64,000 nt of DNA from Prevotella sp. (GTDB lineage Bacteria > Bacteroidota > Bacteroidia > Bacteroidales > Bacteroidaceae): the NCBI GenBank assembly GCA_017471465.1, contig JAFUTI010000002.1:1-64000 (forward strand). The letters run 5' to 3'. This document shows, one piece after another, positions 3-39,100 of this stretch. The notes below the pieces were generated by a model. The model saw nothing but the letters and a program-made list of their open reading frames with translations, was not told where the DNA came from and did no database searches. Position 1 is the stretch's first letter. Each line of letters starts with the position of its first letter. A program made the translations under genes and the position numbers.

Positions 3-161
3 GGTCAAGAAATGGAAGTGGAGCACTCGCTATTATTACCGCAACAATTATCAACGGAGAAATGGAGGGGTGGATGGCTGAGCATCGAATTGGCTATCGG
101 ATGGCAAGCTGACTGGGCATTTTTCAACCGTACAGGTCGAAATTTTTCTGAGAGGCCGTGA
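3..161 (+). CDS. Possible 3' end of an upstream gene (partial)
   Basis: The frame starting at base 3 is open for 52 codons and stops at TGA 159-161. It is the longest open frame at the left edge; the other two forward frames stop at 79-81 and 110-112. The peptide is aromatic-rich in its second half and ends in FSERP. I do not recognise a family. The last codons lie inside the repeat unit at about 136-297, so if the gene is real, the repeat supplies its C-terminus and stop. The three frames cannot be separated on coding grounds, so this is only a candidate. Confidence 0.3.
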   Translation, partial: GQEMEVEHSLLLPQQLSTEKWRGGWLSIELAIGWQADWAFFNRTGRNFSERP

Positions 162-297
162 CTTTTTGTACGACATCAGTTGTGGGTGTTGGTACGACGT
201 CTGGTGTGGGTGTTGGTGCGACATCTGGTGCGACCAACCTTTGAAAATTTGGAGTTGAAAATCAAGCAGTTAAGTGGCAGGTGTAAGAGGTGTCACC
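136..297 (+). repeat. Single copy of the intergenic repeat unit also found at 35813-36115
   Basis: Three blocks appear in the same order as in the right half of the 35813-36115 element: TTTTTCTGAGAGGCCG at 143-158, a GGTGCGAC/TGGTGCGACC block at 215-235, and a 26 nt end block at 272-297 beginning AAGTGGCAGGTGTAAGAGG. The first 22 bases of the end block match the inverted left end at 35813-35838 at 21 positions. No inverted partner is visible to the left, so this is a single unit rather than a doublet. It fills most of the gene-free stretch 162-372; the rest (298-372) shows nothing recognisable. Confidence 0.75.
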
Positions 298-35698: not shown

Positions 35699-35732
35699 AA
35701 CGCTTCTCTCTTTTCTTTATCACATTTGCGTG

Positions 35733-35740
35733 CAAATTTA
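35733..35740 (-). promoter_or_regulatory. -7 box for the ABC exporter gene
   Basis: Minus strand TAAATTTG fits TAnnTTTG; no TTTG is seen 20 nt further upstream. It lies between the gene start and the repeat element at 35813-36115. Confidence 0.5.
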
Positions 35741-35812
35741 CAAAATTCTGCGGAAAAAACTATGTTTTTGTCAATTTATTCAGTACTCGACATCTGCTTA
35801 TCAACAACATAT

Positions 35813-36115
35813 ACCCACACCTCTTACACCTGGCACTTAAAAAGCAGGAAGTCAGACCGTTACAAACCTCAGTGGGTCGCACCAGAGGTCGCACCTGTGG
35901 TCGCACCTATATGTTGTGTACTTTTAGAAAAAACCAGCCTCTCAGAAAAATTTCCCGTCGGGAATTTTTTCTGAGAGGCCGATATTTTTTTACGAGAGGC
36001 CGGTATTTTCTTACTGGTCAGGTGCGACCTCTGGTGCGACCTTAGGTGCGACCTACCCGACTCCGAACGCTACTGATTATCAGCGAGATAAGTGCCAGGT
36101 GCGCCGGGTGTGGGT
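35813..36115. repeat. Composite inverted element (MITE/REPIN-like), two inverted copies of one unit
   Basis: The ends are 26 nt inverted repeats (35813-35838 and 36090-36115) matching at 21 positions, with the mismatches confined to one 5 nt block; the outer nine bases are ACCCACACC. Inside, a perfect 22 nt inverted pair (35875-35896 and 36020-36041, core GGTGCGACC) flanks a central palindrome at 35937-35979. The right end meets the stop codon of the BspA-like gene, and TAT flanks both ends. No ORF of note is inside. It accounts for most of the gene-free stretch 35699-36114. A third copy of the unit is at about 136-297. I know no named family with this structure. Confidence 0.8.
35937..35979. 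terminator. Long central palindrome, possibly a bidirectional terminator
   Basis: 21 bp arms (35937-35957 with 35959-35979) containing CTCTCAGAAAAA and TTTTTTCTGAGAG, with one mismatch and a one-base centre. T-rich tracts follow on both strands within a few bases, so it could end the leftward six-gene operon. It is also the symmetry centre of the composite element. Confidence 0.55.
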
Positions 36116-39100
36116 TATTTCACGACAACCTTTCTGCCGTTCTTGACATAGATGCCTCGCTGCGGCGTCTCGACCTTGCGCCCCTGAAGGTCGTAGATGG
36201 TCTCTGTCTCCGTGTCAACGGTCGGTATGGCATCCTGTCCGGTGGGCAGCTCTTCGAAGATATCCATGACGTCGCGGGCATTTGACGCCGTCGTGGTGAA
36301 GTAGGCCTCGAAGGGTGCTACGGCACGGTAGGTCACGAACTGCGAACCGGCAGCGTTCATCGCATACTTGTCGGAAGCAGAAGCCACCGCCAGGAAGGTA
36401 GGTCTCAGCGTACGCACGCCGTTCGACGTAGCTGTGGCCGCACTGGAAGACGGGACGGTAGCATTGGTAGCCGAGAAGGTGATTGTGCCGTTCACACGGT
36501 AAGCGTCGTCATAGCTCGTGTTGTTGGGCATGGCGATGAGATATGGCTGGTTGGCATACAGGTAGTTAGAGGCCGTGAAGCCGCCGGCGCCGAAGCCATA
36601 AAGCCAAAAGGGTTTCCTGCTATCTGAAGTGCCGGTCCAACGGCCGAAGGGCACGAGCTCGCCTTTCGTGGCATGGCTGATCGTCGTCGGCAGGAACGGC
36701 AGTGTGATAGTCTCCCAGCCCTGTGCCGAGCCCTTACCCGTTGTCTTCGTGAACGAGCGGGTGTAGCTGATGTTGGCTGCCGTAAAGGTGCGCTCAGCCC
36801 AGAAGCCGTTACCACTGGTAAGCGTCACCTGGCTGGCCGTGCTGCCAATCACCACATTCGGCGTGGTATAAGGAGCATACGAACTTGATGTGACATAAAT
36901 CAGCAGGTTGGGGTTGCGCGTCGACGCTGTGGGCAGCATGCTCGATGTGAGGCTGCGGGTAGCCTGCCAGTCGATGCAGCACAGAGCCGAACAGTCGGTA
37001 AACAAGTTGCTGGGCACTGACGTCACCTTGTCATAGACCGTGACACCTATCAGCTGGGTACAGTTGCCAAACACCTGACTCATAATCGTCGTTGCCGTCT
37101 TGGGCAGGGTGATGAACTTCAGCTTCGTGTCGGCAAACATCGACAGACCGACGACATTGTCGGACGTGGCATAGGCCGGCGACTTGTAGTACTCGCCGCC
37201 AGCGACGATGTTGGCATTGGCAAGATTCAGAGTCTCAAGCGTGGCCGTCACAGCGGTATTGCTGTAGTTGATACCTGCCAGCTGCCTGATATAACGGACA
37301 TCGGAGCCGTTGATCGGACCGTTGATAACCAGTTCCTTGGCATTGGCAGCCGTGTAGTTGCTGTTGGCGATAACCGACTGCAGGGTACCTGCCGTCGTCA
37401 GCGTCACCGTCATTGTGCCGCTGCTGTAAGTGACGGTACTGCTGCCACCACCCTCTTCAACGATGTTCGTAAACTTGTTCCAGCCGGTACGTGCCTGATA
37501 AGCACTCTTCTTGCCGGCGGGAACGTAGAGCGTAGCGACGTCGCAGGTCGTGTGGAATACATACTCGTCGACATCAAACGGCGTGACGATAGACGACGTC
37601 ACCTTTTTCATCTTTGAATTATCGTAGAAGGCCCGACTGCCTATCGACGTCACTCTGGCCGGGATGTTAATCTCTTCCAAACTGTTGCAGGATGCAAAGG
37701 CCCATCCGCCAATCTTCTGAACGTTGGCGGGCAGCGTGATGGTCTTTAGATACCTGTTGGTCCAGAAGGCATCGTACTCAATCTCGGTCACCGTCGACGG
37801 GATAGTGTAACTCGTTGTCGTATTACCCTGTGCGTAGGCCTTCAGCACCGTCTTGTTCTTGTCGAAGAGTGCACGGGAGTCCGTCGAGAGGATGGTATTG
37901 CCCGATGCCACGGTGAACTGTGTCAGAGCTCTCATCGCACTGAACGACGACTCAGAGACCGACGTCACCGAGGCGGGTATGGTCAGCGTCGTGAGGGCTG
38001 AATATGAGAATGCGTCGTAGTCAATAGTTGTCAGCGTCGTGGGCAGTGAGATGCTGGTCATCCTAGTGTTTGAGAAGGCACATCCGCCTATTTTCTTCAG
38101 CTGTGCCGGCAGGTTCACGCTGGTCAGCTTCACGTTATAGAAACCATATTCACCAATCGTGGTGACGGCACTTCTCACGGTGAACGACGTGGCTGACATT
38201 CCCTCGGGATAACGCACCAGCGTCAAGCCGTCTTTCGAATACAGCACGCCGTTGTAGGCCATGAAAGTGTTGCCTCCCTCTACATAGAAGATAGTCAGGC
38301 TCGTACAGTTGTTGACAAACGAACCGGCAATCCTCGTTACCGAGGCGGGTATCGAGAGTTCCTTAAGACTCGTGCTGTTGCCAAAGCAATAATAGTCTAT
38401 CTCAGTAATGGTCTTGGGCAGGGTGATATACTGCAAGTTGGAGGCATAGAACAAGTACTCTGGCAACACATTGTTCTCCGAAGCCGTATAGGTGCTGTAA
38501 TACTGCGTGGGGTCGCCACCGACAATCGTTGTATTACCGATGTCGAGGGTCGTCACCGTGCCCGTCGTCGTCATTTCGCGCAGCACCTTGAGGTCGGCAC
38601 CGTTCAGCGAACCGTTGACAACGAGCTTCGTCGGGCTGACAGAGGCATAGCTGCTGTTGGCGATGGTCGACTGCAAGGTTCCTGCTGTCGTCACCGTCAC
38701 CGTCATCGTGCCGTTGTTGTAGGTGACAGAGCCGGAATTGCTCATCTCGCTGATGGTCTTAAAGGTTTTCCAGCCCGTGCGTGCATGGTAGGCACTCTTC
38801 TTGCCGGCGGGGACGTAGAGCGTAGCGACGTCTGCAGTAGTTTCGAATACCGACTCATCAACATCATACGGTGTAACGATATACGATGTCACTTTCTTCA
38901 TCTGTGAATTATTGTAGAAAGCATAGCTATCTATCGACGTCACCTTGGCCGGGATATTAATCTCCTCCAAGCTGTTGCAGGATGCGAAGGCCCATCCACC
39001 AATCTTCTGGACGTTGTCGGGCAGCGTGATGGTCTTTAGATACCTGTTGGTCCAGAAGGCACAGTACTCAATCTCGGTCACCGTCGACGGGATGGTGTAA

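Follow-up and report, generated by a model that had tools for sequence, protein, structure and literature searches.

The intergenic stretch at positions 35813-36115 of the window, by which we mean the whole 64,000-nucleotide stretch of Prevotella sp. DNA that was analyzed, is probably a copy of a mosaic element of MITE-like, non-autonomous kind, which an enzyme acting in trans would move. The family to which it belongs has mirrored ends with a common core, mirrored 12-bp arrays at a fixed distance, a variable center, a dispersed distribution, and copies that are present in one genome and absent from the same site in relatives.

The window element is 303 bp long, and no strand was assigned to it as a whole. 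Its left end (35813-35840, plus strand) begins with ACCCA, followed by the exact 23-bp core CACCTCTTACACCTGGCACTTAA at 35818-35840. Its right end (36089-36115, minus strand) carries a diverged core and GGGT at the edge, that is, an end of the ACCC type. The matching inverted ends described in the initial annotation were recovered as terminal arms of 27 nt (35813-35839 and 36089-36115) with 81% complementarity. An exact inner inverted pair had also been described, and its exactness was borne out (35875-35897 and 36019-36041, 100%); its length is 23 nt and not 22 nt. This pair was found to be part of two mirrored arrays, each of three 12-bp GGTCGCACCnnn units: the left array lies at 35875-35907 on the plus strand and the right array, in inverted orientation, at 36018-36053 on the minus strand. 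In the window, GGTCGCACC occurred 7 times against 0.93 expected, a number reached in 0 of 100 shuffles. The central palindrome (35928-35988) has arms of 30 nt (35928-35957 and 35959-35988) that are 87% complementary and separated by 1 nt; the 43-bp palindrome reported earlier is its core. It contains 21-bp repeat units in opposite directions, and two such units (GAGAGGCCG...), 86% alike, were located at 35965-36006 on the plus strand; this repeat is present elsewhere in the genome, too. By reading the sequence and comparing other copies, we further located a short inner palindrome, CTGATTATCAG, in the right arm (36073-36083), which is lost from the left arm of the window copy.

The two halves of the element are indeed inverted copies of each other (66.9% identity over 317 columns, E = 7e-30), and the third unit that had been placed about 35 kb away was confirmed: its end core occupies 270-292 and its array units 215-238. 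This second window copy (139-293, minus strand) consists of a right half only and lies at the contig start; since window position 1 is contig position 1, its other half is absent from the assembly. When RNA folding of the two strands of the window element was calculated, the energies were 14.6 and 14.2 s.d. below the dinucleotide-shuffle mean, and 0 of 100 shuffles folded as well. The ORFs of at least 80 aa that reach into 35813-36115 are an 82-aa frame (35726-35974) and a neighboring gene, which overlaps with its end.

On one side, the window element is bordered by the 5' end of a 599-aa ORF, which by reading alone seems to encode a putative ABC transporter; on the other side lies a 1,483-aa ORF, with its stop codon toward the element. 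The last base of the element (36115) is at the same time the first base of TTA at 36115-36117, the reverse complement of the neighboring gene's stop codon. The C-terminus of this gene (IYDLQGRKV...) is presumably a secretion-type end domain, and its last 75 bases (36115-36190 of the window) matched sites in the window's own genome, in RUG742, and in RUG200 at 78-83%. TAT stands at both ends of the element as annotated; a duplication of TA or TAT was not established, and a direct repeat at the ends was not recognized as a feature of the family.

Subsequently, the distribution of the family was examined. The window's own genome is a metagenome-assembled genome (MAG) of 2.4 Mb that is 63% complete, and the incompleteness of MAGs limits every negative result given here. 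When this genome was searched with the element at E up to 10, 93 matches were obtained, the element's own site among them, so that the further copies anticipated in the initial annotation were found. With up to 3 mismatches allowed, the 23-bp end core matched 18 times there, whereas its reversed pattern had 0 matches. Among 150 genomes of the same genus, the end core was present in 3 (up to 2 mismatches), and the 12-bp array pattern (up to 1 mismatch) occurred in the same 3 genomes; the reversed control of the array pattern gave 1-3 matches in each of 17 genomes. Neither core nor array pattern was found in any of the 68 same-genus genomes that were at least 90% complete. An exact scan of one genome per species, covering 84,980 species, returned 93 stretches, all titled Prevotellaceae or Prevotella. 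The genomes with matching stretches were RUG200, RUG742 (G051), RUG14573, RUG14547, two SRR bins, and RGIG1522, the title of which gives goat abomasum; SRR11784280_bin.26 is called G101 below. We take RUG in these genome names to mean rumen. No match to three patterns was observed in viral contigs, and no match was observed in a plasmid collection.

A script that looked for pairs of cores no more than 1.5 kb apart, with up to 4 mismatches in each, collected 46 copies of 205-721 bp; the window copy, in which the right core has diverged further, was included manually to give 47 paired copies. The paired copies, including that of the window, are small and non-coding and have terminal inverted repeats, which are MITE features. 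In these 47 copies, the array started 57 or 58 bases from the core in 80 of 85 arrays, and 277 array units gave the consensus GGTnnCACC. The 114 distinct ends were divided into 70 of GGTGA type, 34 of ACCC type, and 10 others; the edge at these end types is sharp, and A-rich sequence was observed just outside both main types. When 42 unique paired loci were compared, 19 had one end of each main type, 13 had two GTGA ends, 4 had two ACCC ends, and 6 included other forms. A GGTGA end together with CACC is itself an array unit, which suggests that one protein may read both. The center varied among copies and was often built of 21-bp repeats; one copy (L034) has no center, and 21-bp units lie directly outside its right end. 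For 47 of 153 ends, a search over 3 kb gave no second core; array motifs are still present at most of these ends, and four solo ends (L036, L038, L041, and L108) had no arrays. At seven loci (L067, L078, L089, L122, L128, L138, and L153), the copy has another conserved sequence as its right end, ...GCTGGGTGTCACC..., and then a GC-rich palindrome, GCGTGCGC..., followed at several of them by a common promoter-like and leader sequence. A tandem repeat resembling TACTCATGTCTAAA was also observed at L149 and in the flanks of L102, L140, and L075, with dozens of matches in RUG200, RUG742, and RUG14573.

The initial annotation presented the element as non-autonomous and mobile, and this agrees with our finding of a dispersed non-autonomous element in the window's genome and its relatives, some of whose sites are filled in one genome and without the element in others. 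In 77 pairs of end segments, the two members matched at 88% or above along 200 bp or more. By the script measure, their near flanks were alike in 25 and unlike in 52; the latter number is an upper bound, because it includes pairs that represent one shared locus whose flanks are alike for a short distance (L042/L152, L081/L151, and L099/L132). Twelve of the 52 pairs lie within one genome and therefore at different loci. For example, two copies in RUG14573 (L114 and L118) were 94.6% alike over 260 bp with unrelated near flanks, and two copies in SRR11784280_bin.26 (L105 and L124) were 91.2% alike. L114 and L118 have a 67-bp flank fragment in common at different distances, and the flanks of L098 and L125 are partly alike.

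Sites filled in one genome were also compared with those of relatives, and the element was missing in 5 of 5 aligned relatives for L090, 3 of 3 for L124, 3 of 3 for L150, and 1 of 1 for L069; divergence of the intergenic DNA prevents a base-exact comparison at these sites. IspH of the window's own genome runs into an element end and gains the tail VTPLTPGS, and IspH of three relatives ends otherwise; the other neighboring gene at this site differs in the relatives as well. Conservation at the same loci in distant species was not encountered: in the compared pairs, loci were shared only among genomes with alike flanks. Taken together, these comparisons of sequence give good support to mobility of the family. 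Many other copies stand at loci shared among genomes with alike flanks, and copies at different loci of the window's own genome are mostly 66-80% alike; accordingly, much of the spread may be old.

Loss and change in place were also indicated. L075 in RUG200 is without the element carried by L084 and L158, and L268 in RUG742 is without that carried by L076. At both of these sites AGGTG is joined to TGGGT, a junction that looks like the product of a deletion between 5-bp repeats at the two ends of the element. As an alternative, a pre-existing target repeat was considered and disfavored: among the matches listed, the exact 15-base junction AATAGGTGTGGGTAT appeared once in 8 genomes (in G174, at the L075 site), and nearby one-mismatch forms at G013 and G176 were also listed. 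Hence, we read L075 and L268 as probable deletions, virgin targets being the less likely alternative.

L070 and L098 stand at one and the same locus, with 80-base flanks that match at 100% and 98.8%, and have identical right arms. In L070, the left arm is a mirror image of the right arm, whereas in L098 it is not. This pair is a candidate for arm conversion, for which an assembly artefact is another possible source. L032 and L130 also have nearly identical arms within the copy. Over all 47 copies, shared loci included, the pairing effect between arms is weak, with a spacer identity within the copy of 0.560 compared with 0.520 (s.d. 0.025) for permuted partners. An invertible segment was rejected, since the same orientation scored higher in 13 of 13 comparisons at shared or part-shared loci; for L068/L137 it was only slightly ahead (0.807 compared with 0.790). 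In the window's own genome, a solo end (L041, C1:218222) and a full copy (L042, C1:222163-222470) lie about 4 kb apart where RUG200 has one element (L152), and the left flank is present twice in comparison with RUG200.

From these features, a trans-acting enzyme would read the end core and the 12-bp arrays as repeated binding sites and would insert copies into intergenic DNA rich in A/T, in many cases shortly after a stop codon. An inserted copy would then be inherited in place, where its arms may overwrite one another and the length of its center may change, and a deletion between its terminal AGGTG (CACCT) repeats could remove it.

We attempted to find this enzyme among Y1_Tnp, DDE_Tnp_1, and DDE_3 loci in the incomplete carrier genomes, and no transposase could be tied to the family. 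DDE_Tnp_1 gave 5 matches in 3 of 6 carriers and DDE_3 gave 2 matches in 1 of 10 genomes, and no core was detected at either set of loci with up to 4 mismatches. The IS630-like source suggested in the initial annotation was thus not upheld, DDE_3 being found in only 1 of the 10 genomes. Two 12-mer likenesses with 2 mismatches were observed at DDE loci (L238 and L240). An autonomous copy was sought by eye in 10 of the 47 partnerless ends and in the ORFs of 5, and no transposase was seen. Direct repeats at the ends were counted in 36 unique pairs. Repeats of 2 bp were found in 15 pairs compared with 11.5 in shuffles, a marginal excess that about 5% of shuffles reach. Repeats of 3 bp (0 compared with 1.2), 4 bp (2 compared with 1.7), and 5-9 bp (0) did not exceed chance.

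That no enzyme was tied to the family would be expected if the copies spread passively, that is, if recombination, conversion, and repeat slippage move and homogenize them and no dedicated enzyme exists in the present carriers. The exchange of inner parts and the candidate arm conversion seen at shared loci, the two apparent losses at AGGTG repeats, and the duplicated flank at L041/L042 point in the same direction. However, recombination driven by flanks does not predict alike copies with unlike near flanks, nor a sharp edge at the end types, and we consider passive spread unlikely.

The initial annotation also offered a REPIN-like doublet, in which two inverted REP units are moved by a RAYT (Y1 HUH transposase) encoded elsewhere. 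Two inverted end units, some solo ends, and no clear target duplication would suit such a doublet, and Y1_Tnp matches were obtained in 6 of 8 carriers; in RUG14573, an element copy lies about 1 kb from a Y1 gene (L220). Nevertheless, Y1_Tnp was found neither in the window's own genome nor in G101, both of which have many cores, and it was present in 2 of 2 relatives that have no core at up to 2 mismatches (G013 and G031). The other 17 of the 18 Y1 loci were without the core. Furthermore, a 296-aa RAYT-like Y1 gene in RUG200 (L222:1060-2000) is bordered by inverted copies of a different palindrome, GATCAG...GGTTCTCTGATC. The core motif of this palindrome was observed in 3 of 114 element flanks (1.05 expected) and its tail motif in 2 of 114 (0.33 expected), counts in favor of the doublet. 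In 855 kb of loci, the core motif had 32 matches with up to 2 mismatches, an uncontrolled count. Folding of single ends, in 60 of the 101 distinct ends, was no better than that of shuffles (mean z of -0.51 for 45 nt and -0.77 for 95 nt); thus, the units of a REPIN, each a stable hairpin, were not recognized in these 60 ends, nor was a cognate RAYT flanked by the same unit among the 18 Y1 loci of the incomplete genomes. These results disfavor the REPIN/RAYT version, which we regard as quite unlikely.

The competing suggestion of a double terminator was examined from the genes around the copies. A terminator-like core is present on both strands of the element; a scan for a GC-rich hairpin with a T run found 2 sites compared with 0.8 (s.d. 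0.8) in shuffles, and Rfam returned only 7 matches, all below gathering and to microRNA families. A crude ORF caller placed both neighbors in 39 of the 47 copies, of which 18 lay between tandem, 11 between convergent, and 10 between divergent genes; all neighboring ORF pairs in the same loci comprised 195 tandem, 47 convergent, and 41 divergent pairs. The distance from copy to gene had a median of 37.5 bp for 3' ends (40 ends) and 149.5 bp for 5' ends (38 ends). A terminator role is possible for single copies; by itself, it does not explain the dispersal. A fixed cellular structure, a bidirectional terminator or RNA hairpin kept at gene ends, is disfavored and the most doubtful of these readings: the very stable hairpin and terminator-like core on both strands and the nearness of 3' gene ends suit it, whereas the core in just 3 of 150 same-genus genomes, the sites without the element in relatives, the copies between divergent genes, the few terminator sites, and the sub-gathering Rfam matches do not.

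The enzyme-moved, MITE-like element was then compared with known systems. Among the matches listed from the open-access literature, which lacks most subscription journals, none dealt with a family of this kind in Prevotella. We take Porphyromonas gingivalis to belong to the same order of bacteria as the window's host. Among the published systems found, the nearest in concept, judging from the portion of the report available to us, is the BrickBuilt MITE of P. gingivalis (PMC4596501). In that portion, BrickBuilt is described, like the window family, as intergenic and multi-copy, from tens to hundreds of bp to about 1 kb long, with a tandem repeat inside inverted ends and no transposase inside; its repeat is of 23 nt, its 12-bp ends are common to IS5-family elements, and duplications of GAAA/AAAA were found at two loci (PMC4596501). 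In the window family, in contrast, mirrored 12-bp repeats lie beside the ends and 21-bp repeats lie in the center; the ends are not those of BrickBuilt, and neither a duplication nor a partner IS was detected. When compared by reading with this portion, the core and units of the window family corresponded neither to the 23-nt repeat nor to the AGACCTTT-type ends of BrickBuilt. As far as the accessible parts of two REPIN/RAYT papers go, those elements are likewise dispersed, paired inverted units with no clear target duplication (PMC3733652, PMC6006769), whereas in the window family single ends form no better hairpins than expected by chance and no cognate RAYT locus was found. Compared by layout and not by sequence, the family differs from pneumococcal BOX in that its modules are mirrored about the center. 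The layout of BOX is boxA/B/C. According to the part seen of a 2024 review of prokaryotic MITEs, BOX is similarly modular and intergenic with a variable number of inner units; neither Prevotella nor Bacteroid was found in the main text there (PMC10969869). Our best reading is a MITE-like mosaic family for which we found no published name.

Related sets were also noticed in the clade. A second composite palindromic set consists of TTTGTCGTCAC / GTGACGACAAA units with spacings near 48 and 18 bases, and 6 clusters of it were observed in the 129 loci scanned: L043, L044, L051, L052, and L053 in the window's own genome and L089 in RUG200. By eye, several of these have a like center of the 21-bp type and a like inner palindrome; L052 is irregular, with 21-bp units outside. 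A possible third set in the window's own genome (L040, L044, L045, L048, and L050) has the 21-bp repeat beside hairpins of short units resembling CACCTCCCA. Because the window family, with its GGTnnCACC units, and the second set differ in their end and array motifs but resemble each other in the 21-bp center and, in several copies judged by eye, in the inner palindrome, we tentatively raise the possibility of a superfamily of modular palindromic elements comprising at least these two sets. Its end modules with iteron-like arrays might be interchangeable around a shared core that can itself be exchanged, different but related enzymes might recognize them, and the arms might be kept alike by within-element conversion.

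If our interpretation is right, these Prevotella genomes carry a mobile family of unusual build without a visible enzyme, and the pairing of ends with an enzyme would be directly testable. One copy alters the end of a gene, with IspH gaining residues from the element, and close relatives provide candidates both for the conversion of arms and for losses at short repeats.
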